Shown: one piece after another, positions 7,464 to 31,043 of the stretch
Layout: each line of letters opens with the position of its first letter
Position numbering within the stretch: the first letter of the stretch is position 1
From: Noviherbaspirillum denitrificans
GTDB lineage: Bacteria > Pseudomonadota > Gammaproteobacteria > Burkholderiales > Burkholderiaceae_D
DNA: 37,118 nucleotides
NCBI RefSeq assembly: GCF_002211445.1
Contig: NZ_LSTO01000001.1
Coordinates: 3,125,322-3,162,439 of the forward strand
Direction of reading: 5' to 3'
Translations under genes and position numbers: made by a program
Notes under the pieces: generated by a model
The model's input: only the letters and a program-made list of their open reading frames with translations
Told to the model about the DNA's origin: nothing
Databases searched by the model: none

Positions 7464-7467
7464 CGCC

Positions 7468-7480: not shown

Positions 7481-7492
7481 AAGGAGACAACG

Positions 7493-7687: not shown

Positions 7688-7705
7688 CCGCTCAGGGAGA
7701 TGAAC

Positions 7706-10666: not shown

Positions 10667-10678
10667 CGGAGTGACGAC

Positions 10679-11305
10679 ATGGCAAGGATGAAATTCATTT
10701 GTGACTCGGAACGCTGCATCGAGTGCAACAGCTGCGCGACTGCGTGCAAGAACGAGAACGAGGTGCCGTGGGGTGTCAACCGCCGGCGCGTGGTCACCAT
10801 CAACGACGGCGTCGTCGGGCAGGAAAAGACCATCTCGGTCGCCTGCATGCATTGTTCCGATGCGCCATGCATGGCGGTCTGCCCGGTCGACTGCTTCTAC
10901 CGCACCGACGAGGGCGTGGTGCTGCACAACAAGGATGCCTGCATCGGCTGCGGTTACTGCTCCTATGCCTGCCCGTTCGGCGCGCCGCAGTTCCCGTCGA
11001 GCGGCACCTTCGGCCTGCGCGGCAAGATGGACAAGTGCACCTTCTGCGCGGGCGGCCCGGAAGAAAACGGCTCGAAAGCGGAATTCGAGAAGTATGGCCG
11101 CAACCGCCTGGCCGAAGGCAAGCTGCCGGCTTGCGCAGAAATGTGCTCGACCAAGGCACTGCTGGGCGGCGATGGCGACGTGGTTGCGGAAATCTTCCGC
11201 ACCCGGGTGATCCATCGCGGCAAGGGCAGCGAGGTATGGGGATGGGGCACCGCCTACGGCAAGGCGCCCAACCAGGCAACCTCACCGACGGGGAAAAAAT
11301 CATGA
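10679..11305 (+). CDS. fdhB: Formate dehydrogenase iron-sulfur (beta) subunit
   Basis: This 208-residue electron-transfer subunit has four cysteine groups: CIECNSCATACKNE at the N-terminus, CMHCSDAPCMAVCP, CIGCGYCSYACPFG, and CTFC with CAEMC. This is the standard set for four [4Fe-4S] clusters of the FdnH/DmsB type. No signal peptide or C-terminal membrane helix is visible, unlike E. coli FdnH, so it is probably carried across the membrane with the Tat-tagged catalytic subunit. GGAG lies 7 bases before the ATG at 10679. The stop overlaps the next start codon (ATGA). Confidence 0.94.
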   Translation: MARMKFICDSERCIECNSCATACKNENEVPWGVNRRRVVTINDGVVGQEKTISVACMHCSDAPCMAVCPVDCFYRTDEGVVLHNKDACIGCGYCSYACPFGAPQFPSSGTFGLRGKMDKCTFCAGGPEENGSKAEFEKYGRNRLAEGKLPACAEMCSTKALLGGDGDVVAEIFRTRVIHRGKGSEVWGWGTAYGKAPNQATSPTGKKS

Positions 11306-11529
11306 AGCGCGCTACCCTGCTCCTCGCATCCGCCACGCTGCTAGTCGCGTGCGGCGAACCCAACCAGTCCAAGTCCACCGGCAACACCAACCGCGGCGAT
11401 ACCGCAGCCTGGCAAGGGGCGAACAACCCGCATGTGGTGAAGGGCTGGAATCCCGGCAACCAGGGAAGCTGGGAAAACCAGATCCGCTCGCGGGGCCAGT
11501 TGCAGAACGAGTACACGAAGACGAATTGA
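11302..11529 (+). CDS. Small lipoprotein within the formate dehydrogenase operon
   Basis: The ATG at 11302 overlaps the preceding stop by 4 bp, and a GGGGA site lies just upstream. The 75-residue product begins MKRATLLLASATLLVACGE, a short lipoprotein signal with lipobox LVAC (Cys17). A polar mature part follows, rich in Asn, Gln and Trp (PHVVKGWNPGNQGSWENQI). It would be membrane-anchored in the periplasm, where the catalytic subunit works. I recognise no family. Its place between the beta and gamma subunit genes suggests an assembly or accessory role, which is inference. Confidence 0.7.
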   Translation: MKRATLLLASATLLVACGEPNQSKSTGNTNRGDTAAWQGANNPHVVKGWNPGNQGSWENQIRSRGQLQNEYTKTN

Positions 11530-11559
11530 GGCGGCGTCCGCCCCAGGAGGGACAACGTG

Positions 11560-12687
11560 ATGAACCGAAGAATTGCCGCCCTGGCCTTTACCGCGATGCT
11601 GGCAGCGTCCGCCGTGAACGCGCAGACGGCGCCTGCACCCGCACCGGCTCCAGCCGCCGCCTTGCCGAATGTAGAGTCGCAGGACATCCTCAAGCAGAAT
11701 CAGGCTGAACGCACGCGCGACCAGCCCGGCAACAATGCGCCGGTATGGCGCGAAGTGGTGAGCGGCGCGCAGCACTATTCCAGCCTCCCGGCGCCGGAAG
11801 CCGGTGTGCTGATCCAGCCCGCTGCCCGCTTCATCGGACAGGACCGCGCGACCACGGCCGGAGAAGCGTGGCGCCGCTACCGCAACGGCCCGCTGACCGC
11901 GATCGGCGCCGGATTCATCCTCGCTGCGCTGGCGATCCTGGCGCTGCTGTACTCTATCTTCGGCAAGATCCGGAACAAGGAAGCGCCGACCGGCCGTCGC
12001 ATCGAACGCTTCACACCTGCCGAGCGCGCGGTGCACTGGACGGTGGCGATCAGCTTTGTCGTGCTGGCCGTCTCCGGACTGGTGATGCTGTTCGGCCGTT
12101 ACATCCTGCTGCCCGTGATCGGCCACACGCTGTTCGGCTGGCTGACCTATGCACTGAAGACCGCGCACAACTTCGTCGGGCCGCTGTTTACCGTCTCGAT
12201 CATCGTGTTCTTCGTCATGTATGTCCGCGACAACGTGCCGGCGGCGTACGACATCCGCTGGCTGATGCGCTTCGGCGGACTATTCGGCGGCAGGGGCGCT
12301 ACGGAACCGAGTTCCGGACGTTTCAATGCCGGTGAAAAGATCTGGTTCTGGGGCGGCCTCGTCGTACTCGGCCTCATCATCAGTGCGTCCGGCTTCGTGC
12401 TCGACATGCTGGTGCCCGGCATCGCCTACACGCGCGCCAATATGCAGCTCACCCACATCATCCACCTGCTGGCGACAACGCTGATGACGGCGGGCGCGCT
12501 TGGGCATATCTACCTCGGCACGCTCGGCATGGAAGGCGCGTACGACGCGATGCGGCACGGTTATGTCGACGACACCTGGGCCAAGGAGCATCACGACCTT
12601 TGGTACGACCAGGTGCAGCGCGGCGAAATTCCGCGCGTTCGTTCGCAGCAAGGTCCGGATGGCACGCCGTCACCTGTCAAGGTATGA
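11560..12687 (+). CDS. fdhC: Formate dehydrogenase cytochrome b (gamma) subunit
   Basis: AGGAGG at 11545-11550 precedes both the ATG at 11560 and a GTG at 11557; the ATG is preferred. The 375-residue protein starts with a cleavable-looking signal (MNRRIAALAFTAMLAASAVNAQ) and a periplasmic, Pro/Ala-rich segment. One helix follows (GPLTAIGAGFILAALAILAL), then the four-helix cytochrome b556 domain from about residue 145. Candidate haem ligands are the His residues in ERAVHWTVAISF, LKTAHNFVGPL and LTHIIHLLATTLM. It should anchor the enzyme and pass electrons to quinone. Compared with the short E. coli FdnI it has a long N-terminal extension, as in other Fdh gamma subunits of this cluster type. 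Confidence 0.93.
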   Translation: MNRRIAALAFTAMLAASAVNAQTAPAPAPAPAAALPNVESQDILKQNQAERTRDQPGNNAPVWREVVSGAQHYSSLPAPEAGVLIQPAARFIGQDRATTAGEAWRRYRNGPLTAIGAGFILAALAILALLYSIFGKIRNKEAPTGRRIERFTPAERAVHWTVAISFVVLAVSGLVMLFGRYILLPVIGHTLFGWLTYALKTAHNFVGPLFTVSIIVFFVMYVRDNVPAAYDIRWLMRFGGLFGGRGATEPSSGRFNAGEKIWFWGGLVVLGLIISASGFVLDMLVPGIAYTRANMQLTHIIHLLATTLMTAGALGHIYLGTLGMEGAYDAMRHGYVDDTWAKEHHDLWYDQVQRGEIPRVRSQQGPDGTPSPVKV

Positions 12688-12698
12688 AGGAGAATCCG

Positions 12699-13025
12699 AT
12701 GCGCATCGCACTCGTATTGACCGCCCTGTTGCTTGGCATGGGCAGCGCCGTCGCCAAGCTGCCGCCGCAATCGCCGGAAGCCGCCGCGACAGCCGCGGCG
12801 GCGAAGGACAAGGCCGCATGGGGTGAAAAGGTTGCCGCCTACAAGCTCTGCCAGGCGCAGGACCGCGTGGCCAAGCAATACCACAAGACCAAGGAGGGCG
12901 CGCCGAAGCAGACGGTGGAAACGCCCGCCTGCGCGGATCCCGGTCCTTATGTGCCAAGCGCAGCAGCGCCTGCTCCTGAGGCGGCCGCACCCGCTGCCCA
13001 GGCCGCCGCCCCGACGAAGAAGTGA
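12699..13025 (+). CDS. Small exported protein with Ala/Pro-rich tail, formate dehydrogenase operon
   Basis: The start at 12699 has AAGGAG just upstream, which overlaps the end of the gamma subunit gene. The 108-residue product has a signal peptide (MRIALVLTALLLGMGSAVA), an Ala/Lys-rich helical stretch, a middle part with two cysteines (YKLCQAQDRV and ETPACADPGPY), and a low-complexity tail of Ala, Pro and Lys. The two Cys may form a disulfide in the periplasm. It is in the same operon, 11 bp after the gamma subunit. I know of no function for it. Confidence 0.72.
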   Translation: MRIALVLTALLLGMGSAVAKLPPQSPEAAATAAAAKDKAAWGEKVAAYKLCQAQDRVAKQYHKTKEGAPKQTVETPACADPGPYVPSAAAPAPEAAAPAAQAAAPTKK

Positions 13026-13052
13026 ACCTGACCAACGAGCCGAAAGCACGCC

Positions 13053-13895
13053 ATGCCCCGCCGCCCGCACATGACCAACGCCAGCGCTCCCCTGACCCGA
13101 GAGGTGGAGGCGATGGATGAGCGCGGGCGCCTGTCCCTGATCTCGATCCCGGCGGAACGGCCGCTCACCGTCTATGTGGACAAGCGGGAACTGGTCACGC
13201 TGATGACGCTGGGCGCCGCGCCCGAAGCGCTGACCCTCGGCTACCTGCGCAACCAGCGGCTGGTCGCCTCGATCGACGAGGTGGAATCGATCACGGTCGA
13301 CTGGGATGTCGATGCGGTCGCGGTGAAGACAGTATCGGGCATCGCCGGCATCGAGGAACGGACTGCGCGCAAGGTCGTCACCACCGGCTGCGGACAGGGA
13401 TCCGTGTTCGGCGGGCTAATGGACGAAATCGACCGCATCGTGTTGCCGCCGGATGCGCGGCTGCGGCAGTCGGTGCTGTACCGCGTGGTCGACACGGTCC
13501 GTACCTACCAGTCCATCTACAAGCAGGCGGGCTCGGTGCACGGTTGCGCGCTGTTCACTGCTGACGGCGAATTGCTCTACTTCATCGAAGACGTGGGCCG
13601 CCACAATGCCGTCGATTCGATCGCCGGCATGATGTGGCTGGACGGTTTGACCGGCGAAGACAAGGTGTTTTACACCACCGGCCGGCTGACGTCCGAAATG
13701 GTGATCAAGGGTGCGCAGATGGGCATCCCCTTCCTGCTGTCGCGCTCCGGCACCACGCAGATGGGGCACATGGTCGCCGAACGGCTTTGCATGACGCTGC
13801 TGGCGCGCTGCACCGGCAAGCACTTCCTCGCGCTGACCGGCAAGGAAAGGCTGATCATGGAAACCCACCTCGCCGACGTGCTGCGCGTCGCCTGA
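13053..13895 (+). CDS. fdhD: FdhD, formate dehydrogenase sulfurtransferase
   Basis: This 280-residue cytoplasmic protein delivers sulfur from a cysteine desulfurase to the Mo/W-bis-MGD cofactor, which formate dehydrogenase needs for activity. Family features are VYVDKRELVTLMTLG, the active-site loop KVVTTGCGQGSVFG at about residue 110, SVHGCALFTADGELLYFIEDVGRHNAVDSI and FLLSRSGTTQMG. The loop has only one of the two cysteines of the E. coli CxxC motif; the second position is Gly. No strong ribosome binding site marks the start, and the ATG at 13071 is equally possible. It follows the small exported-protein gene by 27 bp and precedes the transporter genes by 6 bp. Confidence 0.93.
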   Translation: MPRRPHMTNASAPLTREVEAMDERGRLSLISIPAERPLTVYVDKRELVTLMTLGAAPEALTLGYLRNQRLVASIDEVESITVDWDVDAVAVKTVSGIAGIEERTARKVVTTGCGQGSVFGGLMDEIDRIVLPPDARLRQSVLYRVVDTVRTYQSIYKQAGSVHGCALFTADGELLYFIEDVGRHNAVDSIAGMMWLDGLTGEDKVFYTTGRLTSEMVIKGAQMGIPFLLSRSGTTQMGHMVAERLCMTLLARCTGKHFLALTGKERLIMETHLADVLRVA

Positions 13896-13901
13896 CCGGA
13901 C

Positions 13902-14609
13902 ATGCACCTGATCGACGCCGTCCACGCCGCCTTCTCCCTCCTGTTCTCCGGCGATGCCGAGCTGTGGCGGATCATCTGGGTATCCCTGAAAACCACGCTC
14001 GCCGCGCTCGTCATCGCGACCCCGCTCGCGGTGCTTGCCGGCTATGGCCTCGCCACCCATGCCTTTCGCGGCCGGCGCGTCGTGATCTGGCTGGTGCAGG
14101 CCACGCTGTCGCTGCCGACCGTGCTGGTCGGCCTGCTGCTTTACCTGATGCTGTCGCGCCAGGGGCCGCTGGGCGAGCTGCAGTGGCTGTTTTCGCAAAG
14201 CGGGATCATCGCCGGGCAAGTGCTGATCGCCTTGCCGCTGCTGACCGCCTTCTCGCTCGCCGCCACGCAGGCCGCCGATCCCCGCATTGCGGAGACCGCA
14301 GTCACGCTGGGCGCATCGCGCTGGGAAACCATGCTCACTGTGCTGCATGAAGTCCGCTTCGGCATCATGGCCGCCGTCATCAGCGGCTTCGGCCGCGTGA
14401 TTTCGGAAGTCGGTTGCGCGATCATGATCGGCGGGAATATTGCAGGCCAGACGCGCACCATGACCACCGCCATCGCGCTGCAAACAAGCAAGGGCGAATT
14501 CGCACAGGGCATCGCGCTAGGCATCGTGCTCGTCACGATTGCGTTGCTGATCAATGCCGCGCTCGTGTTTGCACAAGGCGACACCCAGACCGCAGGGAGA
14601 AGCGCATGA
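13902..14609 (+). CDS. tupB: Tungstate ABC transporter permease TupB
   Basis: This 235-residue inner-membrane protein has about five to six hydrophobic helices. The cytoplasmic-loop signature of a binding-protein-dependent permease is visible (EAxxxG form: AETAVTLGASRWETMLTVL, residues about 130-148). The sequence LSLPTVLVGLLLYLMLSRQGPLG is typical of TupB/anion permeases. It shares ATGA with the next gene and lies 6 bp after fdhD. With the ATPase and binding protein that follow it forms a complete importer. Assignment to tungstate rests on the TupA-type binding protein and on the formate dehydrogenase context. Confidence 0.88.
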   Translation: MHLIDAVHAAFSLLFSGDAELWRIIWVSLKTTLAALVIATPLAVLAGYGLATHAFRGRRVVIWLVQATLSLPTVLVGLLLYLMLSRQGPLGELQWLFSQSGIIAGQVLIALPLLTAFSLAATQAADPRIAETAVTLGASRWETMLTVLHEVRFGIMAAVISGFGRVISEVGCAIMIGGNIAGQTRTMTTAIALQTSKGEFAQGIALGIVLVTIALLINAALVFAQGDTQTAGRSA

Positions 14610-15283
14610 CCGCCATGCTCGAGGTGAGCGGCCTGAAGAAGCGGTTCGGCGAACGGCTGCTGTTCGACATCGACCGGCTGGTCTTGCGCCAGGGCGCCGC
14701 CTACACACTGACCGGGCTGAACGGTACCGGCAAAAGCACCCTGTTGCGCATTCTCGCCGGGCTGGAACCCGCCGAGCTGGCATCGGTGCGATTTCTCGAT
14801 ACGCCGGTCACGCTCGCTCCCTACCCCGGCTGCCTGCGCGATGCTGTCGTCTACGTGCATCAGCATCCGGTCATGTTCTCCACCTCGGTCGCCGACAACA
14901 TCGCATACGGCCTGAAGACGCGCGGGCTTGCCGCCGACGAAATCGCACGGCGTGTCGACGCAGCGATGGAATGGGCGGGGGTGGGACACCTGCGCAAGAG
15001 CAAGCCGGCCACGCTCTCCGGTGGCGAAAAGCAGCGCGTCGCACTGGCCCGTGCACATGTGCTCGAGCCACGGCTCCTGTTGCTCGACGAGCCCACCTCG
15101 AACCTTGACGGCGCCGCACGCGAACAGGTGATCGCGCTGATCCCTTCACTCGTCGCGGACGGACGCACGGTCGTCATGGCCTGCCACGACCGCGACCTGA
15201 TTTCCCTGCCCAACGTGGAGCGGTTGAAACTGCGCGACGGCCGCCTGCAGGCGCGCCAGAACCGGCTGCGAAAGGTCATTTGA
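14606..15283 (+). CDS. tupC: Tungstate ABC transporter ATP-binding protein TupC
   Basis: The ATG at 14606 overlaps the permease stop by 4 bp. The 225-residue ATPase has Walker A GLNGTGKST near residue 38, the Q-loop region VVYVHQHPVMFSTSV, signature LSGGEKQRVALARA, Walker B LLLLDEPTSNLD and the H-loop VMACHDRDL. All are intact, so it should energise uptake. The small size, without a C-terminal regulatory domain, agrees with TupC rather than ModC, which has a molybdate-binding C-terminal domain. Confidence 0.9.
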   Translation: MTAMLEVSGLKKRFGERLLFDIDRLVLRQGAAYTLTGLNGTGKSTLLRILAGLEPAELASVRFLDTPVTLAPYPGCLRDAVVYVHQHPVMFSTSVADNIAYGLKTRGLAADEIARRVDAAMEWAGVGHLRKSKPATLSGGEKQRVALARAHVLEPRLLLLDEPTSNLDGAAREQVIALIPSLVADGRTVVMACHDRDLISLPNVERLKLRDGRLQARQNRLRKVI

Positions 15284-15303
15284 TGAAAAGGCATTAACGA
15301 CGG

Positions 15304-16113
15304 ATGAAAACATTCCTGCAGGCCGTGCTGTCCCTTTCCCTGCTGTGGCTTGCGCCGGAAGGACTGGCGCAGCAAGTCCTCAAGCTCTCCACTACCACCA
15401 GCACGGAAAATTCCGGCCTGCTGAATTACCTGCTTCCCGCATTCGAATCGCAATCCGGATTGAAGGTGCAGGTCATCTCGGTCGGCACCGGCAAGGCACT
15501 GGAACTGGCGAAGAACGGCGACGTCGATGTCACGCTGGTCCACGCGCGGCCGGCGGAAGACCAGTTTGTCGCCCAAGGGTACGGCGTGGAGCGGCGCGAC
15601 GTCATGTACAACGACTTCATCATCGTCGGCCCGGCGTCCGATCCGGCCGGCATCAAGGGGACGAAGGATGTGCTCACCGCGTTCCGCAAAATCGTCCAGG
15701 TGAAGGCCCGCTTCATCTCGCGCGGCGACAATTCAGGCACCGACCAGATGGAACAGGCGTACTGGAAGAAGGCCGGGGTCAAGCCGGAGGGCGATGCGTA
15801 TGTGTCCGCCGGCCTCGGCATGGGTGAAGTGCTGAACATGGCTGCGGAGATGAAGGGATACACGCTGACAGACCGCGCCACCTATGTTGCCTACAAGGCC
15901 AGGACAGGACTTGTGATCGCGGTAGAAGGCGACCCCGCCATGTTCAATCCCTACGGCATCATCGCGGTCAATCCTGCGCGCCACAAAGGGGTCAATTTCA
16001 ACGGCGCGATGCAACTGATTCGCTGGATTACATCGGATGCCGGGCAGAAGCGAATCGCTGCGTTCCGTGTCGAAGGCCAGCAGTTGTTCTACCCCGGCGC
16101 CGCGCAGCGGTAA
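15304..16113 (+). CDS. tupA: Tungstate-binding periplasmic protein TupA
   Basis: This 269-residue exported protein has a signal peptide (MKTFLQAVLSLSLLWLAPEGLAQQ). The TupA anion-binding start LKLSTTTSTENSGLLNYLLP follows immediately. Further family segments are VGTGKALELAKNGDVDVTLVHA, the ISRGDNSGTDQMEQAYWK loop and FNPYGIIAVNP. TupA proteins bind tungstate very tightly and prefer it to molybdate. Its location at the end of a formate dehydrogenase operon suggests that the enzyme uses tungsten, or either metal. That is inference and needs metal analysis. Confidence 0.92.
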   Translation: MKTFLQAVLSLSLLWLAPEGLAQQVLKLSTTTSTENSGLLNYLLPAFESQSGLKVQVISVGTGKALELAKNGDVDVTLVHARPAEDQFVAQGYGVERRDVMYNDFIIVGPASDPAGIKGTKDVLTAFRKIVQVKARFISRGDNSGTDQMEQAYWKKAGVKPEGDAYVSAGLGMGEVLNMAAEMKGYTLTDRATYVAYKARTGLVIAVEGDPAMFNPYGIIAVNPARHKGVNFNGAMQLIRWITSDAGQKRIAAFRVEGQQLFYPGAAQR

Positions 16114-21647: not shown

Positions 21648-24600
21648 TCATGAAACGAAGACAGCCGCACCGGGCAGGCAAGCCTTTCCTTCGCGCGCCC
21701 GGTACCACTCCTCGAACACTTCGCCGGACAGCGGCTTGCACACGTGATAGCCCTGCGCGTGGCTGCAGCCGTGGCTGCGCAGGTAGCTGAGCGCGCTTTC
21801 CGATTCGATGCCCTCGGCGATGACTTCGAGCTTGAGCGTGCGTCCCAGCGCAATCACCGCCTCGGTAATGGCCCGGCTTGCGGAGTCATGCTCGATGCGC
21901 TGCACGAACGACTTGTCGACCTTGATCTTGTTGATTGGCAGGCGGGACAGGTAGTTCAGGCTGGAATACCCGGTGCCGAAGTCGTCCAGCGAAATCTTGA
22001 TGCCCATCTCCTGCAGCCGGCGCAGGACATCGATGGCGCGGTCCAGGTTTTCCATCAGCGCGGTTTCCGTCAGCTCGACCTGCAGCGCACCCATCCCGAC
22101 TTCCTCATCCTCGAGCAGGCTGGCGAACTGCTCGGCAAAGTCATCATGCCGGAACTGCACGGCCGATACATTCACGGCGATCGGAATCGGCGGCAAGCCC
22201 CGTTCGCACCATTCCTTGTGCTGCCGGCACGCCTCGCAGATCACCCATTCCCCGAGCCGCGCGATCTGGCCGGTCGCCTCCGCAATCGGCACGAAGAGAT
22301 CCGGGCCGACGTGGCTGTTCGGCCACCGCAACAGTGCTTCCACGCCGGTCAGCTGTGCGGTGTGCATGTCGACGACCGGCTGGTAATGCAGTTCGAAATC
22401 GCTGCGGCTCAACGCGGACTTCAGTTGTTCTTCGATCCGCGATTGCTGCCTAGCCTTGGCCGCCAGCTCTTCCGAATAGAATTGCACGCCGTTGCGGCCC
22501 ACCTGCTTGGCCCGGTACAGCGCCGCATCGGCATGGCTCATCAGCGTCTCCAGGTCCTGGCCGTCCCGCGGATACACACTGATGCCGATCGAGGTGGAAA
22601 GCGTCAGTTCCAGGCCGTGTACATAGTATGCGCGGCTGATCTCCCACAGCAGGTGTCGGGCCACATCGCCGGCCTGCGCGTCATCGTGGATTTCCGACAG
22701 CAGGATGAGGAATTCGTCGCCGCCGAGGCGGAAGACGCTGTCGGCGCCGCGTATCGTTTCCGTCAACCGCTTGGCAACCTGCTTCAGCACTTCGTCGCCG
22801 ACCTGGTGGCCATAGTTGTCGTTGATCGGCTTGAAGCGGTCGAGGTCGAAGTAGAGGACGGCGGTGTGCTTATGCGCGCGCCGGACGCCGCTGAAAATGC
22901 GTGCCGCGCATTCGAACAGCAATCCGCGGTTCGGCAGGCCGGTCAGCGGGTCATGCAGCGAGGTCTGCCGGATACGCTCTTCCGCGCGCTTCCGTTCACT
23001 GATATCGAGCACGAATGCGACGAGGTCCCTGCTCTGGTCGATGACCGCGCAGGTGATCAGCACCGGCACCCGCGTGCCGTCGCAGCGAAGCAGCTCTTTT
23101 TCATAGAGTCCGGATACGCCATAAGCCTGCGCGTCCGCTATGGCCTTGGCATCGGACATGCTGTGCTCCGCAGTTGTCTGCACATCCCAGCGCAGCCGTC
23201 CGGCTGCGACATCTTCGCTGTTCGCACCGAGGATGCGCAAGTATGCCGCGTTCGCTTCCAGCACGCGGCCGTCTATCGTGCCCCGCGCGACGCCGATCGG
23301 ATTGGCTTCGACGATCAGCTGCAATTGCCGTTCGCGGGCCCGCAGCGCTTCTTCCACCCGCTTCTGTGCGGTGATATCCAGCGTTGTTCCGATGAACCTG
23401 ACCGGCATGCCCTTGCCGTCGAAATACACCCTGCCCCTTGCTTCGATCCACCGTTCCACCCCGTCTTCAATCCCGACCGTCCGGTATTCGGTCTGGTAGT
23501 GCCCGGATGCGCCGGGGCGCATCACCTCGCGCACGATCTTTTCGATTCGGGCACGATCGTCGGGGTGCAGCCCCGCGACAAACACATCGTAGCCGGTCGC
23601 GGCGTTGGCCGAGAGCCCGAAATGGCGCTTCATTTCCGTATTCCACTCCGCGCGCCCGGTTTGCGGATAAAAATCGAACATGCCGAGCCCGGTCGCATTG
23701 ATGGCGCGCTCGAGGCTTTCCTTGTTCTTCTGAAGCTCGGCCTCCGCCCGCTTCCTGTCATCGATCGATTTCACGATCGAGATGAAGTATTGGGGTACGC
23801 CCTGGCTGTCGCGCACCAGGGAGACGCTCAGCGTGCTCCATACCACCTCGCCGCTCCTGTGCAGGAAGCGCTTGTCGATCGCGTATGACGACATTTCGCC
23901 GGCCAGCACGCGGTGCATCAGCGCCAGGTCGGCATCGATGTCGTCGGGATGGGTGATGTCCTGGAAGGTCAGCGAAAGCAACTCGTCCTTGCCATAGCCG
24001 ACAATATCGCACAAGGTTTCGTTGACCCGCAGCAAGCGGCCATCCGGCCCGATGTGGGCAATGCCGACCGATGCCCGCTCGAATGTCGCCCGGAAATCCC
24101 TGTTGGCCTGCTCGAGATCGTCTGTGCGCGCGGCAACAAGCCGCTCGAGTTCGATCGATAGCGCCCGCAGCTGTTCTTCCTCGCGATGCCGCAGCGTCAT
24201 GTCGCGTATCGAGGCGGCGACAAGCAGGACGCTGCCGGTGTCGACCGGCTTCAGGTTGATCTCGGCGGGGAATTCCGAGCCGTCTGCCCGCAATGCCGGC
24301 AGCACAGCCTTGGTGCCGGCAGAAGTGCGCAGTTCGGGCCGGCACAAAAATTGGTGGCGCTGCGCAGTGTGGCGTGCGTGGAATCGCTCCGGTATCAACT
24401 GTTCGACCGACATGCCGAGAAGGCGGTCGCGCGTATAACCGAACATTTTTTCGGCCAGCTCATTCACCAGCACGATCTTGCCGTCCGGTCCCGTGACCAG
24501 CATGGCGTCAGGGACAAAATCCAGCAAGGCCGCAAAGCATTGCTGCCATGCAATCGGTTCAGTGGAACTTGCTAAAGGGGAAGTGGCAAGCGTCAAGCCC

Positions 24601-24668
24601 GCATCCTGCCCGGATACGGACCCTGAGCGGGCACTGCCGGCGCGCCCTTTCCTCGATTTTTGATCCAT
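21648..24668 (-). CDS. Four-PAS diguanylate cyclase/phosphodiesterase (PAS-GGDEF-EAL)
   Basis: The protein is 1006 residues from the ATG at 24668, with a GAGAG site just upstream. The open frame continues to 25226, but that part reads through non-coding sequence and into the next gene. Four PAS domains start at about residues 45, 180, 310 and 440 (for example DFVPDAMLVTGPDGKIVLVNE). A GGDEF domain has intact LGGDEF and an RGAD inhibitory site 5 residues before it. An EAL domain has intact VEALLRW, VELTETALMEN, SLDDFGTGYSSLNYL, KVDKSF and AEGIES. Both catalytic sites look competent, so it may make and degrade cyclic di-GMP under PAS control. No signal peptide or membrane helix is seen. The downstream neighbour is convergent. 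Confidence 0.93.
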   Translation of the reverse strand: MDQKSRKGRAGSARSGSVSGQDAGLTLATSPLASSTEPIAWQQCFAALLDFVPDAMLVTGPDGKIVLVNELAEKMFGYTRDRLLGMSVEQLIPERFHARHTAQRHQFLCRPELRTSAGTKAVLPALRADGSEFPAEINLKPVDTGSVLLVAASIRDMTLRHREEEQLRALSIELERLVAARTDDLEQANRDFRATFERASVGIAHIGPDGRLLRVNETLCDIVGYGKDELLSLTFQDITHPDDIDADLALMHRVLAGEMSSYAIDKRFLHRSGEVVWSTLSVSLVRDSQGVPQYFISIVKSIDDRKRAEAELQKNKESLERAINATGLGMFDFYPQTGRAEWNTEMKRHFGLSANAATGYDVFVAGLHPDDRARIEKIVREVMRPGASGHYQTEYRTVGIEDGVERWIEARGRVYFDGKGMPVRFIGTTLDITAQKRVEEALRARERQLQLIVEANPIGVARGTIDGRVLEANAAYLRILGANSEDVAAGRLRWDVQTTAEHSMSDAKAIADAQAYGVSGLYEKELLRCDGTRVPVLITCAVIDQSRDLVAFVLDISERKRAEERIRQTSLHDPLTGLPNRGLLFECAARIFSGVRRAHKHTAVLYFDLDRFKPINDNYGHQVGDEVLKQVAKRLTETIRGADSVFRLGGDEFLILLSEIHDDAQAGDVARHLLWEISRAYYVHGLELTLSTSIGISVYPRDGQDLETLMSHADAALYRAKQVGRNGVQFYSEELAAKARQQSRIEEQLKSALSRSDFELHYQPVVDMHTAQLTGVEALLRWPNSHVGPDLFVPIAEATGQIARLGEWVICEACRQHKEWCERGLPPIPIAVNVSAVQFRHDDFAEQFASLLEDEEVGMGALQVELTETALMENLDRAIDVLRRLQEMGIKISLDDFGTGYSSLNYLSRLPINKIKVDKSFVQRIEHDSASRAITEAVIALGRTLKLEVIAEGIESESALSYLRSHGCSHAQGYHVCKPLSGEVFEEWYRAREGKACLPGAAVFVS

Positions 24669-25066
24669 GCCACTCTCATGACGTTTCCAGCACGGATGCT
24701 GCAATGAAGATATGACTGCATGAAGAGCGGCAAGGTTCATTACCGCTATTGCGGATCCGGCGGTTGCGGCGATCTTCTTCAGCTCACGCGGGATACGCCT
24801 TGCCGGCGTGAAAGATGAGAGTGCCTTCCTGCTATGTGGCTCACGGCGGTGATCTCGGCCATGATGTCGGTGACGCGCCTCACGCTCTCGACGATTTCCT
24901 GCATCGTCTGCCCGGCCGCGCCGACCAACCTGCTTCATGACTTCGGTCAGTTGCTGTTGATGGCCATCTTTGCCTTCAAGGATGATAATTCCTCGGACTG
25001 CAATGCCGATGTCACTCACTTCGCCGCAACGGTTTGAATTCCTGTTGCGTGCCGGGCCGTTTATCG
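24669..25066. other. 398-bp intergenic stretch holding a chemoreceptor remnant
   Basis: Between the PAS-GGDEF-EAL start and the thioredoxin-like stop I see no intact gene. The only recognisable content is a short methyl-accepting chemotaxis protein fragment at 24836-24928, minus strand. The remaining 300 bp show no clear motif. Confidence 0.6.
24836..24928 (-). pseudogene. Fragment of a methyl-accepting chemotaxis protein signalling domain
   Basis: One minus-strand frame encodes 31 residues containing TMQEIVESVRRVTDIMAEI, an obvious match to the conserved cytoplasmic signalling hairpin of chemoreceptors (compare TMxxIVxxVxRVTDIMxEI in Tar and Tsr). The match begins after an in-frame stop a few codons upstream and dissolves into unrelated sequence after AVSH. 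There is no start codon, and no other receptor part is nearby. It is a relic left by deletion or recombination. Confidence 0.75.
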
Positions 25067-25594
25067 TTAGTGCACCGCGCGAACTTTCGCAGCCGAAGAT
25101 CGGCGGCCTTCCGCTGCAAAAGAACCTGCATGTTCCGCCGCGAGCTCTCTGGTCACGAGCCCTGAATGCGCAACAACCTTGCCGTCCCTGCCAAACCAGT
25201 ATGAACGCGGCAGCTCGCCACGCCATTTCGGATCGATCGCGTAGCGCAACTGCTCTTCCGGCGCCGGGCCAAAGGCCCAGGCTTTACCCGCGAGGCCGTG
25301 CGCGGACAGCTTCTTGCCGATCAGCTTCGCCGTTTCCGCATCGCCTGCCGGGTCGGTCGCGATAGTCACCACGTCCAGTCCATGCTTCCGCTTTGCCTCG
25401 GCCAATGCCTCGAAGCTCGGCCCGCAATACGCGCAGTCGAGCGACCAGACCAGCACGACAAAAGGCTTGCCCTGCCTGCTCGCCACGATCTCCCTGAACG
25501 AATCCGGGCCGAAGGCGCTGATGGAATCCGACGCCTGCGCCGTTCCGAGATGCCAGAGCAGCGCGGCAACTGCTGCAAGGATTGCCCGTTTCAT
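25067..25594 (-). CDS. Exported thioredoxin-fold (TlpA-like) protein
   Basis: This 175-residue protein has a signal peptide (MKRAILAAVAALLWHLGTAQAS) and a thioredoxin fold: VVLVWSLDCAYCGPSFEALAEAKRK carries the redox motif CAYC at about residue 55. A likely cis-proline sits in ELPRSYWFGRDGKVV. It should act in the periplasm as a thiol-disulfide or metal-handling protein. The ATG at 25594 overlaps the stop of the beta-propeller gene by 4 bp, so the two are translationally coupled. The start shown is the only one that gives a signal peptide. The longer open frame upstream lies within the propeller gene. Confidence 0.85.
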   Translation of the reverse strand: MKRAILAAVAALLWHLGTAQASDSISAFGPDSFREIVASRQGKPFVVLVWSLDCAYCGPSFEALAEAKRKHGLDVVTIATDPAGDAETAKLIGKKLSAHGLAGKAWAFGPAPEEQLRYAIDPKWRGELPRSYWFGRDGKVVAHSGLVTRELAAEHAGSFAAEGRRSSAAKVRAVH

Positions 25595-26808
25595 GCCTTT
25601 TCCTTCCACAACGGAATGACGCGTATCCCTTCTTCTTGCGTGCGCCAGACGAGAACGATGCCACCGGGGGAATCGATGAGGTAAGGACTGTCTGAGTTGG
25701 CCGTCGTGCGCGCCGCTTCCATTTGCGTCCACGTGCTGCCGCCGTCGTCCGACAGTCTCGTAAAGACCGCGGTCGATTTGCCGTCGAATTCCTTCCACGC
25801 GATGGCGACCTGCTTGCCGCGCGCAAGGATGTCCGGGTGGGAGGTCTGGCCGCCATTGCCGAGCAGTTCCGGCTTGCCGCCGCCCGCGCCATAGAGGGAG
25901 CCGCTCATATCCCCTTCTATGCCGTTGAACCACACCTGGTGCCGCTTGCCGTCATTGCCATAAGCGACCGACGGGCCGTGGTGGGGGCAGGCATCGACGC
26001 GCCAGTCGTCGAAGGTCACGCGGGTGATTTCCGAGGCGACGCCCCTGACGCCGAGTTCGGCGAGCGCGTGGTCTCGGATATTGGGCGCGAAGACATGGCG
26101 CCAGACGGCAACCGGTACGCCTTCCGGGTTGAGTGACAAGCCGATGCGGCAGCATTCGCAGGTATGGTCGGCGACCTTGTAATCGCCGGTGAAGCTTTCT
26201 CCGCGGTCGTGCGACACCGCGTAGTACAACGCGGATCCGGTGTACTTTTCATTGCGCTGTTTTGCCTGCAGCGCGTCGCGGCCATCAATCCACGCAATTG
26301 TGATGCGGCCGTCCTTGTCCACGATCATCGACTCGAAGCTGTGCACGGTGTGGTCGCGGTTTGCATGCACGGTAACCGGCTCGGAGAAGGTCTTTCCGCC
26401 GTCGAGCGAGCGCACGAAACGGATGTTGCCGATGTGCGGCCTAGCGACCGTGCTGGTATAGCTGATGTAGATTTCGCCCTTGCCGCCAATGGCGATATGC
26501 GGCCGCGCTTCGCCGCTGGCAGCGACAGGCTCGGGCGCTTTCTGTATGCGTGCAGCGTCGGTCCAGGTTATGCCCATGTCCGGCGAGCTGCGGAGCACGA
26601 CATATTGCCCGGCGCTGTCGGTTTCCTTCGTGACCACCCACAACCGTCCATCCTTGTCGAACGCCGCTCCCGTTCCCAGGTCGCGCGATGCGGTCTTGCT
26701 GTCATGGACATGCTTGCCTTGGGCAAAGGTCGCCGGTGTTACGGCGAATAGCGTAATCACACCAAGAACAGCGCCGATCCGAGTCAGGAAATGTCGTGTG
26801 GAATGCAT
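25591..26808 (-). CDS. Exported sialidase-like BNR beta-propeller with Cys/His motifs
   Basis: This 405-residue protein has a signal peptide (residues 1-29, ending TPATFAQG). BNR/Asp-box repeats are visible (SPDMGITWTD, SLDGGKTFSEP, SHDRGESFTGD, SDDGGSTWTQ), which form a sialidase-type six-bladed propeller. The catalytic set of true sialidases is not evident. Instead there are two striking motifs, DHTCECCRIGL at about 210 and RVDACPHHGPSV at about 258, that look like a metal or cofactor site. It starts 6 bp after the TonB receptor stop and overlaps the thioredoxin-like gene. A periplasmic partner of the receptor is the best inference. An exo-sialidase label from a database would be misleading here. 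Confidence 0.82.
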   Translation of the reverse strand: MHSTRHFLTRIGAVLGVITLFAVTPATFAQGKHVHDSKTASRDLGTGAAFDKDGRLWVVTKETDSAGQYVVLRSSPDMGITWTDAARIQKAPEPVAASGEARPHIAIGGKGEIYISYTSTVARPHIGNIRFVRSLDGGKTFSEPVTVHANRDHTVHSFESMIVDKDGRITIAWIDGRDALQAKQRNEKYTGSALYYAVSHDRGESFTGDYKVADHTCECCRIGLSLNPEGVPVAVWRHVFAPNIRDHALAELGVRGVASEITRVTFDDWRVDACPHHGPSVAYGNDGKRHQVWFNGIEGDMSGSLYGAGGGKPELLGNGGQTSHPDILARGKQVAIAWKEFDGKSTAVFTRLSDDGGSTWTQMEAARTTANSDSPYLIDSPGGIVLVWRTQEEGIRVIPLWKEKA

Positions 26809-26814
26809 GGCCGC

Positions 26815-29112
26815 TCACATGTCGAACTTCAGTTCCGCGACGTAGGTACGCTGCGGATACGGATGGAATGCCCAGTACTTGTAATTGTTCAGGTTATCGA
26901 TGCCGAATGCCGCTGACCATTGCCTGGCGATCTGGTAGCGCACCCGGACATCGGTCACGAAATACTTGCTGAAGCCCAGGTAGCTGAAGCCGTTGGTGTC
27001 GCTGTTGTCGAGCTGGCCGTACTGGGTGCCACTATAGCGTGCACCGAGCGAATACGCCCAGTTGGCATCAGGCTTGTAGGTGGCGAGCGCGGTGGCGCGC
27101 CACTTCGGCACGCGCGGCTGGCGCTTGCCCACGCTTGCCGGATTGCCGCTGTTGGCGGTGATGACTGAATCCGCATAGGTCAGGCTGCCGTTGAGTTCCA
27201 GCCCGGTGACGCCGACATCCGATGCCAGGAACGCCAGTTCGAGTCCGTTGGTACGGACCTTATCCACGTTCTGCACGGTACTGACCGTGGCCGACAGCGG
27301 CTGCGAATACAGCGCGTCGCGGGTGCGCTCGAAGAACAGCGTGGCGCGGACCATGCCATTGGGCAGCATGCGCTCGGCGCTGAGTTCGGTCGTCCAGGAC
27401 TTTTCCGGCTTCAGGTCGGGATCGGTATTGATGATCTCGTTGCCGCTGATCGAACCCTGGTACAGCTCGCCGACCGTCGGCATGCGTACCGCGCGTCCGG
27501 TCGATGCCTTGAGCACCAGGTCCGGGCTGGCCTGGAAGGCGATCGCCGCTTTCGGCGAAATGAAATTTTCGTCGCGCGTGGTGCCGAAGGGCAAAATGCG
27601 GGCGGCATTGCCGAGTTCGCCGCCCCAGGCGCGCCACATTTCATAGCGGCCGCCGAGGGTGGTTTTCCAGTCCTGCGCGAACTGCCAGGTGTCTTGCGCA
27701 TACAGGCTGCGCAGCTGCGCGTTGCCGTTGAATGCGGAAAATCGCAGGCCCGCATCGCCATTGATCCAGTCGGCCGTGTTGCTGACCAGCGTACGCAGCT
27801 TGTATTCCTCCTGCTGTACGCCGAAGTCGACCACATGCGCGCCGACACCCTTGGCGCTTCCTGTCGGCCGCCAGGTCCCGCGCACGCTCAGGGTATTCCA
27901 GCCGGTGCCATCCATGTCGGTGATGCGTCCCGCGCCGCCATTGAAGGCTGCCGGCAGCACCGCGGTCGGTGCGCGCGCGATGTCCTTCTGGTAATCGTAC
28001 AGGCTGGCCGCCACTTCCCAGTCGAACATGCCCTTGGTGTTTGTCTTGACCGACAGGCCGTGCATCACATGCTGGATATCATTGCGGCTCGGGGCAAAGG
28101 CGAGGCTGGGCGAATCCAGCTTGTACTGGCGGTCACCGATCACCACATCGCCGGCATAGACAGGATTGCCGGCCGCATCGCGCAGGTAGCTTTCGACGCC
28201 GCCGGTCGTGTTGTTGTGCCACAGGCCGAGCGTATAGCTGGCGCGAATGGTGGGGGAAAAGTCATAGGCCAGCTTGAGCTTCGCGTGGTCCTGTACCGTG
28301 TGATATTTCGTCGTGGTACCAAGGATCCACCAGTCGCGTTCCTGGTGGTTTTTCGCGCCGATGGCGCCGGTCACCACCGGCGTGCCGGCAGCCGGGTTAG
28401 CACCGTCGGACACCAGGCGGTTGGCGATCACCATCGGCTGGCCGGCGCTGTCGAGGCGATTGAGGTTGAACCACCAGGAAAACGCGCCGCTACGGTTGCC
28501 GGCCGACACACTCGCCTGCTTGGCGGAATCGCGTTCGCTGGTGCCGTAGAGATCGAAGTCCTGACTCGAATAGCCCAGCTTGGCGTGTGCCTCGAACCTG
28601 ATGGGCATGCGCGTCACGTAATCAACCACGGCGCCGACGGAATTGCCCGGATAGGCCGCCGAAAAAGGTCCGTACAGCACATCGACGCGTTCGATTTCCT
28701 CCGGCGTCACCAGCCCCCAGCGCGGCGCGAAAGTCGCCCCGTTGCCGAGGAAATTCGACAGCAGGATGCCGTCGGCAAACACCATCGAGCGGGCGCTGTT
28801 GCCGGTGCCCGACGCGCGCGTGGACAAAACCGCGTGGTTGAAGTCGCCGATATAGCGCTTGCGGACCAGCAGGCTGGGCAGGTATTTCAGCGCATCTTCG
28901 CTGTCGGTGGCGTTAACGGTCACTTCGACCTGCTTGCCGGTAACGCCTTCGATCGTGGTCGGAATCTGGGTTGGCAAGGATGTCGGCTGACCGCCGATCA
29001 CAGTGACCGTACCGAGTGTCTTGACGGGGGCTTCATGGGACTGCTGGGCAAATGCGCCGGCGGACAGTGCTCCGAGCAATGCTGCGTAGAGCGGCTTGCA
29101 GCGCGGGATCAT
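26815..29112 (-). CDS. TonB-dependent outer-membrane receptor
   Basis: The ATG at 29112 gives 765 residues with a signal peptide (MIPRCKPLYAALLGALSAGAFAQQ). The open frame extends to 29427 without a signal and into the divergent kinase gene, so the shorter start is chosen. A TonB-box-like LGTVTVIG follows at about 33-40. The plug domain is at about 45-165 (DALKYLPSLLVRKRYIGD, GPFSAAYPGNSVGAVVDYVTR), then a 22-strand-type barrel with RAVRMPTVGELYQG and NTDPDLKPEKSWTTELS. It ends YVAELKFDM, with the usual terminal aromatic two residues in. The ligand is unknown. No siderophore or vitamin B12 genes are nearby. It is the first gene of a three-gene operon with the propeller and the thioredoxin-like protein. 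Confidence 0.92.
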   Translation of the reverse strand: MIPRCKPLYAALLGALSAGAFAQQSHEAPVKTLGTVTVIGGQPTSLPTQIPTTIEGVTGKQVEVTVNATDSEDALKYLPSLLVRKRYIGDFNHAVLSTRASGTGNSARSMVFADGILLSNFLGNGATFAPRWGLVTPEEIERVDVLYGPFSAAYPGNSVGAVVDYVTRMPIRFEAHAKLGYSSQDFDLYGTSERDSAKQASVSAGNRSGAFSWWFNLNRLDSAGQPMVIANRLVSDGANPAAGTPVVTGAIGAKNHQERDWWILGTTTKYHTVQDHAKLKLAYDFSPTIRASYTLGLWHNNTTGGVESYLRDAAGNPVYAGDVVIGDRQYKLDSPSLAFAPSRNDIQHVMHGLSVKTNTKGMFDWEVAASLYDYQKDIARAPTAVLPAAFNGGAGRITDMDGTGWNTLSVRGTWRPTGSAKGVGAHVVDFGVQQEEYKLRTLVSNTADWINGDAGLRFSAFNGNAQLRSLYAQDTWQFAQDWKTTLGGRYEMWRAWGGELGNAARILPFGTTRDENFISPKAAIAFQASPDLVLKASTGRAVRMPTVGELYQGSISGNEIINTDPDLKPEKSWTTELSAERMLPNGMVRATLFFERTRDALYSQPLSATVSTVQNVDKVRTNGLELAFLASDVGVTGLELNGSLTYADSVITANSGNPASVGKRQPRVPKWRATALATYKPDANWAYSLGARYSGTQYGQLDNSDTNGFSYLGFSKYFVTDVRVRYQIARQWSAAFGIDNLNNYKYWAFHPYPQRTYVAELKFDM

Positions 29113-29179
29113 TCTTCGACTTCCTTTTATCGTGTTGGCATTTTGGGAAAGGATAGAGAAGATTGCATGCCACGGTAAT

Positions 29180-29194
29180 GCGACATAATGTCGC
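29180..29194. promoter_or_regulatory. Perfect palindrome resembling the RegA/RegR box
   Basis: GCGACAT-A-ATGTCGC is a perfect 15-bp palindrome in the 133-bp region between the TonB receptor and regB starts. The RegR box from Bradyrhizobium, as I recall it, is GNG(A/G)C(A/G)TTNNGNCGC. The site fits every specified position except one (A for the second T). Since regA lies next door, binding by RegA is a reasonable inference. Confidence 0.6.
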
Positions 29195-29233
29195 ACCCCC
29201 TCTGTACGGCACGGAAACTGTTGTCCGCGCCGA

Positions 29234-29239
29234 TATAAT
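29234..29239 (+). promoter_or_regulatory. Consensus -10 element (TATAAT) before regB
   Basis: TATAAT ends 6 bp before the regB ATG, so transcription would begin at or next to the start codon. No good -35 lies at the usual distance (ACGGAA at 29211-29216), as expected if an activator helps. Confidence 0.5.
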
Positions 29240-29245
29240 CGAGAC

Positions 29246-30514
29246 ATGCGAATTCCCTTGATCTTCAAGCCCTTGCCCCAGCACGAGGCACTCGGCCGGC
29301 TGGCGTGGATGCGCGCGATTGCGCTCACGTTCGAGGCAATCGGCGTGGCCATGGCTGTGTTGTGGCTGGAGGTGCACCTGGAGGTCGAACCGGTGCTTGT
29401 GGTCATGGCACTGCTGGCGGCATTCAACGGCTGGACGTGGCGGCGCCTGCAAAATCCGCAACCGGTAGGCGATACCGGCCTGTTTTTCCAGCTGCTGGTC
29501 GATATCGCCGCCTTGTCGGCGCTGCTCTACCTGACCGGCGGCGCAACCAACCCCTTCGTGTCGCTTTACCTGCCCGCCCTCGCCGTCGCCGCCGCCATCC
29601 TGCCGTGGAGCCATGCGCTGGTGCTGGCCATCGTTTCGCTGGCCGCGTACTCGGCGATGATGTCCAACTACGTGCCCATCCATGTCATGGATCACGAGAT
29701 GGCGATGAGCTATCACCTGGTGGGCATGTGGATCAACTTTGCGCTGTCCGCCGCCCTGATCACCTGGTTCGTCGGGCGCCGCTCGCGCCTGTTGCGTGAA
29801 AAGGATGCACAGCTGGCAATGGCGCGCGAGCAACACTTGAAGAGCGAACAGATGATCGCGCTGGGCACGCAGGCTGCACGCACTGCCCACGAAATGGGCA
29901 CGCCCCTGTCGACCATCGCGCTGATCGCCGGCGACCTGCGGCATGACTTTGCACGGGATCCGGCGCTCGCCGCCTACCAGGAAGACATCGCGACTATCGA
30001 AGCGCAGATCGCGCTCTGCAAGGCGTCCCTCGACCGCATGGGCGACAAGGCCGGCGAGGATGCGGCCTCACAGGACGATCCTGTCGACGTGGCAGGCTGG
30101 CTGGCGGAATTCATCGAGAAATGGCGGGTACGCTGCCCCGCGACGCGACTGAAACTATCGGTGGCGGCCGAAGGGGCGCAAGTGCGCCACGCCCACGATC
30201 TTGGTCAAGTCCTGCTGATCCTGCTCGACAATGCGGCACACGCCGTGTCGCAGGCCGACTCTGTCGTCAGTGTCTACCTGACCGTCGAGGCCCGCTTCGC
30301 CGTTATTCGCATCGCCGATCAGGGGCCGGGTATTTCCGCGGAACTGCTTCCCCGCCTCGGCAGCGAGCAAGTGACCAGCACGTCGGGCGGGCAAGGAATC
30401 GGCTTGACGCTCGCGTTCGCCACCGCCCGCCAGATGGGCGGACGCATTGTCCTTTCATCCGAACCCGGCGCCGGCACCACGGCGACCCTCACGGTGCCGC
30501 TGCATGAAGCCTAA
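29246..30514 (+). CDS. regB: RegB/PrrB-type redox sensor histidine kinase
   Basis: This 422-residue kinase has about six N-terminal helices (residues 20-175) including GGATNPF at 98-104, the ubiquinone-binding heptapeptide typical of RegB. The H-box AARTAHEMGTPLSTIALIAGDL carries His215. Cys258, 43 residues after it, may match the redox-active Cys265 of Rhodobacter capsulatus RegB. The ATPase domain has LLILLDNAAHAV (N-box), ADQGPGIS (G1), and GGQGIGLTLAFATARQMGG (G2). RegB autophosphorylates when the quinone pool is reduced and passes the phosphate to RegA, encoded next with an 11-bp overlap. The window's formate dehydrogenase and the divergent TonB operon are possible targets. Confidence 0.93.
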   Translation: MRIPLIFKPLPQHEALGRLAWMRAIALTFEAIGVAMAVLWLEVHLEVEPVLVVMALLAAFNGWTWRRLQNPQPVGDTGLFFQLLVDIAALSALLYLTGGATNPFVSLYLPALAVAAAILPWSHALVLAIVSLAAYSAMMSNYVPIHVMDHEMAMSYHLVGMWINFALSAALITWFVGRRSRLLREKDAQLAMAREQHLKSEQMIALGTQAARTAHEMGTPLSTIALIAGDLRHDFARDPALAAYQEDIATIEAQIALCKASLDRMGDKAGEDAASQDDPVDVAGWLAEFIEKWRVRCPATRLKLSVAAEGAQVRHAHDLGQVLLILLDNAAHAVSQADSVVSVYLTVEARFAVIRIADQGPGISAELLPRLGSEQVTSTSGGQGIGLTLAFATARQMGGRIVLSSEPGAGTTATLTVPLHEA

Positions 30515-31043
30515 GATTCTCATCCTCGACGACGACGACGTATTCTCGGCCACGCTCGCGCGTTCACTGGAGCGCAGGGGTCTTGAAGCGACGGTGGCGC
30601 ATACCGGAGACGACGCACTCCAGGCTGCGACCCGCACCGCGTTCGATTACGCGACCATCGACCTGCATCTCGCCGAAGACTCCGGCCTGCAGTGGATCGC
30701 ACCCTTGCGCGCCGCCCTGCCCCACGCACGCCTGTTGGTACTGACCGGTTACGCCAGCATCGCCACGACCGTCCAGGCCATCAAGCTCGGCGCGGACGAC
30801 TACCTTGCCAAACCGGTGAATGTCGACTCCATCCTGTCTGCGCTGCAGTTCAAGACCGGAGCGGAGCTGGCGTTGCCGGGGGCGGAGGAAATGACGCCGC
30901 TGACCGTCGACCGGCTTGAATGGGAACACATCCAGCGGGTGTTGGCTGAGCACCAGGGGAATATTTCTTCGACCGCGCGGGCATTGAACATGCACCGGCG
31001 CACGCTGCAGAGGAAGTTGGGGAAGAAGCCGGTGGGGAAGTAG
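30504..31043 (+). CDS. regA: RegA/PrrA-type response regulator
   Basis: From the ATG at 30504 the protein has 179 residues, the normal RegA size. An upstream start at 30447 would lie well inside regB. The receiver domain has the acidic cluster LDDDD at 9-13, phospho-acceptor Asp53 in TIDLHL, a Thr in VLTGYAS and Lys in LAKPVN. The C-terminal Fis-type helix-turn-helix reads NISSTARALNMHRRTLQRKL, almost the invariant RegA recognition helix. It overlaps regB by 11 bp and is co-translated with it. In related bacteria RegA controls respiration, hydrogenase, nitrogen fixation and formate-linked genes. Confidence 0.95.
   Translation: MKPKILILDDDDVFSATLARSLERRGLEATVAHTGDDALQAATRTAFDYATIDLHLAEDSGLQWIAPLRAALPHARLLVLTGYASIATTVQAIKLGADDYLAKPVNVDSILSALQFKTGAELALPGAEEMTPLTVDRLEWEHIQRVLAEHQGNISSTARALNMHRRTLQRKLGKKPVGK

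Follow-up and report, generated by a model that had tools for sequence, protein, structure and literature searches.

A conserved receptor–propeller–thioredoxin gene trio in Noviherbaspirillum denitrificans as a probable copper-acquisition operon

Three tightly packed genes on the minus strand of a 37,118-nucleotide stretch of the Noviherbaspirillum denitrificans genome (contig NZ_LSTO01000001.1, positions 3,125,322 to 3,162,439; the whole stretch is referred to here as the window) encode a TonB-dependent receptor (26815–29112, 765 amino acids, with Pfam Plug and TonB_dep_Rec_b-barrel matches over the cut-off), an exported BNR-type β-propeller (25591–26808, 405 amino acids, with a signal peptide recognized by eye) and an exported ResA/TlpA-like thioredoxin-fold protein (25067–25594, 175 amino acids, with export likewise judged by eye). 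We read the trio, a gene set found in many environmental bacteria, with a probability of about 0.72, as a copper-acquisition operon feeding haem–copper oxidases. Little is known of copper acquisition in Gram-negative bacteria and of the route that copper takes from the outer-membrane receptor to the oxidase chaperones. The propeller family, which occurs in several classes of the phylum, is a specific and widely distributed candidate for this missing step in the periplasm and offers a defined site for mutagenesis.

In the proposed mechanism, the TonB-dependent receptor would import a copper chelate across the outer membrane, TonB, ExbB and ExbD genes lying alongside in many relatives, and the periplasmic propeller would take up the copper where its central channel opens, at a site composed of the CxCC motif of one blade, a Cys and two His residues of the next, His156 one blade before and Glu100 two blades before. 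The ResA/TlpA-like protein would keep the propeller cysteines reduced and would perhaps also supply electrons for the conversion of Cu(II) to Cu(I); the copper would then pass to PCuAC/Sco-type chaperones and on to the haem–copper oxidases. Expression would be set by copper or by the respiratory state, through a DUF2946 leader in some lineages and probably through an adjacent RegB/RegA-like pair in the window. A further proposal is tentative, with the odds somewhat against it: the propeller may represent a new class of copper protein, the four-Cys, multi-His channel-mouth site of which would bind a CopG-like copper–thiolate cluster, strip copper from the imported chelate and reduce it with electrons from the thioredoxin-like partner, the scaffold having been recruited both to uptake operons and to plasmid resistance islands.

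Conservation of the gene trio

The receptor and propeller genes are separated by 6 bp, and the latter shares 4 bp with the thioredoxin-like gene. This layout of a receptor, an exported propeller and an exported CAYC protein had been described, with its coordinates, in an earlier sequence-only reading, and is borne out by the sequence and, for the receptor and the propeller, by Pfam. That reading depended on the co-occurrence of the three families elsewhere, which was assessed at 84 loci comprising the window, 46 named loci and 37 loci from 36 genomes of a 300-genome search of the order. One of the six search seeds for the named loci was ADHTCECC, so that this set is biased to that motif. Three genomes judged to represent the same contigs as named loci (G187, G195 and G159, the propeller of the last being identical to that of L122) were left out, and propellers more than 90% alike are present within the sets L102/L103, L104/L106, L039/L041 and L056/L057/L078. 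A thioredoxin gene within 400 bp of the propeller, or a receptor gene within 1300 bp of it, was counted as a neighbour if on the same strand.

The propeller was found in 40 of 300 genomes of the order in a whole-protein search (E ≤ 1e-20) and in 17 of 398 genomes of the phylum in a profile search (E ≤ 1e-15), with the genome of origin counted in both. It has a thioredoxin gene beside it at 75 of the 84 loci, a receptor gene at 72 and both at 66; at the 37 loci found independently of the motif the corresponding numbers are 34, 35 and 32. The expected co-occurrence was thus upheld, and the trio is a conserved system, not an accident. Genes for TonB, ExbB and ExbD lie within the fetched stretch at 31, 24 and 21 of the 84 loci, respectively.

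Genomes of only ~1.3 Mb, at 99% completeness (G222, G252, G155 and G244), retain the propeller at L104, L106, L108 and L113, and its retention at this genome size argues for a strong need. Genome G107 holds, in addition to an intact copy (L111), a partial propeller of 218 amino acids split over two frames (L112, 7027–7680). A divergent second propeller subfamily, with receptor genes nearby and with the motifs SCACC/CPH or TCDCC/CPVNGP, was observed at L148 (7016–8164) and L153 (3239–4336); one genome, G480, holds both subfamilies (L147 and L148).

The propeller site and its thioredoxin-like partner

The propeller scores 37.8 bits against Pfam BNR_2 (cut-off 31.4), and its Asp-box residues are conserved. 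An AlphaFold2 model built from 45 sequences (mean pLDDT 89.2, with values of 93 and 82 for the CxCC and CPHH motif blocks) displays seven blades by strand count; sialidases have six. The closest solved folds to the model are PLL lectins, CylK and glycan lyases (Z 29.6 to 25), and E. coli YncE is also among the structural matches (Z 23.5). The protein carries the BNR/Asp-box feature of GH33 sialidases; no RIP string of the (F/Y)RIP motif was seen in it by eye. A role as a sialidase or in sugar uptake was considered and rejected: its sequence matches in the PDB are short, with none extending across the Cys motifs, and sugar genes were not noticed as repeated neighbours. The sialidase label is a label of fold only, and if the copper reading is true, annotations as 'sialidase family protein' mislead.

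The motifs DHTCECCRIGL and DACPHHGPSV, to which the sequence-only reading had drawn attention, are present in the propeller and contain C217, C219 and C220 (CxCC) and C274, H276 and H277 (CPHH), respectively. The four cysteines are invariant in all 45 aligned propellers, accompanied by H290 (44 of 45), H277 (42), E100 (41), H156 and H324 (40 each); H276 is found in 35, the remaining ten having Glu or Asp. In the motif-free sample of 37 loci, obtained by the whole-protein search, CxCC is present in every propeller and CP in 36, the sole miss being the partial propeller of L112. This conservation is not due to chance.

According to the model, blades 4 and 5 are offset by 57 residues (strand A at 223 and 280, strand B at 232 and 289), which would pair C217 with C274, C219 with H276 and C220 with H277. 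An offset of 63 residues between blades 3 and 4 (strand B at 169 and 232) would bring H156 onto C219, and one of 119 between blades 2 and 4 would place E100 at this same position. The aligned Cys, His and Glu residues are predicted to lie at or just before the innermost strands, around a single channel mouth. The distance between corresponding atoms in neighbouring blades of an ideal seven-bladed propeller is 0.87 r, or about 5–9 Å for r of 6–10 Å (a figure from ideal geometry, not from model coordinates). Because they occupy equivalent positions in two neighbouring blades of a confidently predicted model, the cysteines of CxCC and CPHH should meet in space. The proximity of the two motifs, on which the sequence-only reading depended, is therefore supported at the level of the model, and their equivalent placement in adjacent blades speaks against distant structural disulfides; a shared Cys/His copper site in the propeller appears likely.

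The thioredoxin-like protein has only sub-threshold Pfam matches (AhpC-TSA, 16.3 of 26 bits), and the ResA-like, TraF-like, DsbE and TlpA models of NCBIfam score 13–17 bits, far below their cut-offs. It nevertheless displays the ResA/TlpA-type combination of an exported thioredoxin fold and a CxxC motif, here CAYC, the cysteines of which (C54 and C57) are invariant (41 of 41), and its family profile matches StoA, TlpA and ResA. The nearest solved folds to its model (pLDDT 91.1) are ResA and MPT53, followed at lower rank by CcmG and TlpA, and belong mostly to the reducing extracytoplasmic branch. TlpA reduces the cysteines of oxidase subunit II that serve as copper ligands before the metal is inserted (PMC7558416). 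By analogy, this precedent and that of CopG, considered below, together support a copper site of thiols that a dedicated partner keeps in the reduced state. Apparent long joint open reading frames (ORFs) resembling propeller–thioredoxin fusions were recognized from their coordinates as overlapping reading frames.

Receptors, copper genes and regulators around the propeller

CruR, a copper-sensing leader peptide, belongs to the family DUF2946. A local DUF2946 profile matches 23 of the 84 loci, always upstream of the propeller and on its strand; the Pfam model adds L086, L088, L117 and L118, bringing the number to 27, and does not match L109, one of the 23. It confirms the family at the five loci scanned in the right frame (L059, L080, L042, L083 and L081) and at L142, a locus outside the 84; a Pfam scan at L061 (3886–4383), where the DUF2946 match lies in another frame, gave no family. 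Across the 40 propeller genomes, the Pfam model yields 22 matches in 18 genomes, half of which (11 of 22) are located 2.4–3.9 kb upstream of a propeller, on its strand and with the receptor gene in between. A gene for a PCuAC copper chaperone is present at six of the 84 loci and at six of 12 further loci (L142–L146 and L151), of which L142–L146 are placed no finer than in the same phylum as the window. The order at L142 is DUF2946, receptor, propeller, thioredoxin, PCuAC, DUF1775 (YcnI-type) and CopC–CopD.

Distant propellers, ~25% identical, were found in copper-resistance islands on plasmids of Roseobacteraceae in all three records examined of the 61 matched. Each island contains genes for TolC, a copper oxidase, a copper-binding protein, an azurin-type protein and cytochrome c, two have a P-type ATPase and one of the three has CusA; no receptor gene is found among the features shown, the gene table being incomplete. 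In all three islands the propeller (L123, 8025–9266; L156, 6980–8221; L157, 7004–8245) directly follows the cytochrome c gene and is annotated only as 'sialidase family protein', so that the broader CxCC-propeller family reaches plasmid-borne copper resistance under this name. The one island propeller translated, that of L123, keeps CTCC and CP and has lost both His residues of CPHH; the divergent propellers of L148 and L153 also keep CxCC and CP.

In the window, reading of the sequence between the receptor start at 29112 and the divergent kinase revealed no DUF2946/CruR leader gene, and the sole DUF2946 match of the genome at E 0.001 (C1:2294750) is unlinked and marginal (24.2 bits, cut-off 23.7). 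Copper, named in the sequence-only reading as the prime suspect, nonetheless gains backing from the relatives, with their DUF2946/CruR-type, PCuAC, DUF1775 and CopCD genes, their TIGR01778-like receptors and the copper-resistance islands, and is likely to be the cargo.

The propeller pairs with at least three classes of receptor, called by a local profile with BLAST expansion, not each by Pfam: class A, to which that of the window belongs, class B and a TIGR01778-like class. Class A comprises 36 aligned receptors, 35 of them relatives from related loci at 23–51% identity, with two moderately conserved His residues (in 28 and 31 of 36); the nearest solved chains to its profile are PhuR, the colicin I receptor and PqqU/YncD, and CrtA (9rvq) is not one of the five solved chains that the profile reaches at E ≤ 1e-30. 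Class B (26 aligned) has PqqU/YncD as its nearest solved relative, and its profile puts PqqU first although it also matches CrtA 9rvq at 2.4e-43. In Duganella/Pseudoduganella (L039 and L040) the receptor gene lies downstream of the propeller–thioredoxin pair, and the best family of the receptors is the TonB-copper family TIGR01778 (166 and 158 bits, cut-off 472); the receptor of the window, with 22 NCBIfam matches, does not match TIGR01778 at E 0.1. The receptor is exchangeable and the propeller is not; since different receptors serve one propeller–thioredoxin pair, this suggests that the pair defines the cargo.

Divergent from the operon, across an intergenic region of 133 bp (29113–29245), lie plus-strand genes for a RegB-like sensor kinase (29246–30514; NF033792, 171 bits, cut-off 350; GGxxNPF motif recognized by eye) and a RegA-like Fis-type response regulator (30447–31043, the true start probably being downstream of 30447; NF033791, 169 bits, cut-off 250). 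RegB and RegA are the best-scoring NCBIfam families for the pair, both below the equivalog cut-offs; a divergent redox two-component system had been recognized earlier from the sequence. A RegB-like match is present at nine of the 84 loci, the window included, that at L076 being partial, and in seven cases (the window, L049, L054, L058, L085, L087 and L110) the RegB/RegA pair and the receptor gene are divergently oriented; at L149, outside the 84, a kinase and a Fis-type regulator are in line. RegB and DUF2946 share no locus (nine versus 23, P = 0.047, or nine versus 27, P = 0.024, uncorrected for relatedness), a mutual exclusion that is suggestive only.

At E 0.001 the RegA model matches 93 places in the genome of origin and 12 of 14 control genomes, and is therefore unspecific at this threshold. 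Two matches score well above the others, with 169 and 160 bits (next 93, cut-off 250): that of the window and one at C1:771798, which follows a RegB-looking kinase recognized by eye. This second RegB/RegA-like pair (L154, 10457–12314; C1, ~770.5–772.3 kb) is near a cytochrome oxidase cluster, and the one PCuAC match of the genome is ~4 kb from another oxidase gene. We infer that the RegB/RegA-like pair of the window regulates the operon, and propose that a duplicated redox regulator has been split, one pair lying close to an oxidase and the other next to the putative copper supply; if the copper reading is true, a RegB/RegA-type redox regulator would be linked not only to oxidases but also to copper supply.

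Two further features of the window were observed. A long ORF on the minus strand (21648–25226), with PAS, GGDEF and EAL domains, probably has its true start downstream of its first ATG, because this overlaps the thioredoxin gene. The region 1612–16113 encodes MoeA, a MobA-like protein, a multi-Fe4S protein, DUF3305/DUF3306, a Nitrate_red_del-type chaperone, a molybdopterin oxidoreductase (formate-dehydrogenase-like), cytochrome b561, FdhD and a PBP/ABC transporter of tungstate type (labelled by eye), and is possibly a tungsten/molybdenum formate dehydrogenase locus.

Alternative readings and known systems

Several observations weigh against copper acquisition. No copper family was found by Pfam in 26 scanned ORFs of the window, and copper is consequently drawn from the relatives; the blade positions of the putative site come from secondary structure, not from coordinates; and the receptors fall into several classes, the ligand of which may differ. 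The thioredoxin gene is not beside the propeller at nine of the 84 loci. Five of these are real nearby absences (L070, L073, L075, L079 and L113, with a near-full propeller and 2–7 kb of sequence beyond), whereas L074 and L091 end just past the propeller and L084 and L112 hold partial propellers; since the sequence ends near the propeller at several loci (for example L065, L071, L074 and L091), missing neighbours are in part a matter of sequence ends. In B. japonicum, deletion of the pcuB receptor gene gave no detectable phenotype (PMC12617631). The family of DUF2946 is often found upstream of heavy-metal detoxification genes, and its member CutF is needed for the copper-dependent production of a copper oxidase (PMC9973294), while a Caulobacter DUF2946 gene is found among genes for zinc/cadmium efflux (PMC4176598); DUF2946 is specific neither to uptake nor to copper.

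The detoxification operons headed by DUF2946 genes (PMC9973294), and the efflux islands in which the distant CxCC propellers lie, would fit a protective function, with the propeller capturing or oxidizing surplus periplasmic copper and the receptor secondary. Protection is nevertheless unlikely: the adjacent receptor gene at 72 of 84 loci of the close family and the common TonB–ExbB–ExbD genes point to import, copper turns off the receptor operon that CruR heads in B. pertussis (PMC9426467), and PCuAC, YcnI and CopCD neighbours fit copper supply. We regard as improbable to the same degree that the propeller is the periplasmic binding protein for a haem-, siderophore- or quinone-like compound or for another metal. 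The kinship of class A receptors to PhuR and of class B to the PQQ transporter PqqU/YncD, the structural match to YncE, presumably a seven-bladed propeller encoded beside yncD, and the zinc context in Caulobacter all lean this way; yet similarity among TonB receptors predicts the ligand poorly, copper genes recur among the neighbours examined, no recurring haem, siderophore or PQQ gene was noticed among those neighbours that were identified, and invariant thiols next to a thiol reductase fit a thiophilic metal. Slightly less probable still is that the cysteines form plain disulfides, in which case the thioredoxin-like protein would assist folding and the propeller would be a lectin or an enzyme with no connection to metals. 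Sugar-binding lectins and glycan lyases, with CylK, do head the structural matches, and exactly four cysteines, enough for two disulfides, are found in 26 of the 45 aligned propeller stretches. The adjacent cysteines of CxCC, however, offer poor geometry for two structural disulfides, and His and Glu residues at equivalent positions of neighbouring blades are conserved with them; CxCC and CP also persist in the distant copper-resistance member, though H276 and H277 do not, and ResA/TlpA-type proteins reduce, not isomerize.

Among known systems, the cruR–crtA–crpH operon of Bordetella pertussis (CrtA/BfrG; PMC12914433, PMC9426467, PMC13038864) likewise has a TonB receptor in a copper-acquisition operon and a link to haem–copper oxidases, with a DUF2946 gene upstream as at 27 of the 84 propeller loci. 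The operon of the window differs in having neither a DUF2946 gene nor, after the receptor, a PepSY_TM gene, the propeller gene and then the thioredoxin-like gene coming next in place of CrpH. Membership of its receptor in CrtA was considered and not shown, class A not being near CrtA by profile. The main texts of these three papers contain neither 'propeller' nor 'sialidase'; that of PMC9426467 names AhpC_TSA genes and no propeller, sialidase or BNR, which its Fig. 7 or tables may contain. A literature search of titles and abstract starts, with supplements and figures outside its reach, found no description of such a propeller with copper.

The locus L142 carries DUF2946, receptor, PCuAC, DUF1775 and CopCD in the order of pcuABCDE of Bradyrhizobium, with the propeller and thioredoxin-like genes inserted between the receptor and PCuAC, and the window keeps the receptor, propeller and thioredoxin-like genes only. 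We take the L142 layout to be this copper-starvation operon with two inserted genes. PcuB is named as the receptor, and PcuC is also named, in PMC12617631. OprC/NosA (TIGR01778) are TonB copper receptors, resembled by those of the Duganella/Pseudoduganella relatives and, at E 0.1, not by that of the window. YncD(PqqU)–YncE of E. coli also combines a TonB receptor with a periplasmic propeller, the fold of which is among the structural matches; YncE is not known to have a CxCC site, and the ligand is PQQ.

In CopG, a tetranuclear copper cluster is held by CxCC together with two Met residues (reviewed in PMC7558416); the protein shares with the propeller the CxCC motif, the periplasm and a place in copper gene clusters. 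It has a thioredoxin fold and Met ligands, whereas here the CxCC motif belongs to a propeller and is joined by a fourth Cys and by His residues predicted on neighbouring blades, and the thioredoxin-fold partner, unlike the CxCC-bearing thioredoxin domain of CopG, carries CxxC only. The likeness is one of convergence, not membership. As a kind, TonB-dependent copper-uptake operons are already known (PMC12914433, PMC9426467), and the sequence-only description of an undescribed uptake or metal-handling system stands in part: the operon type is not new, but the propeller–thioredoxin pair and this class of receptor are, and, within the literature searched, the CxCC propeller is apparently an undescribed kind of copper handler.

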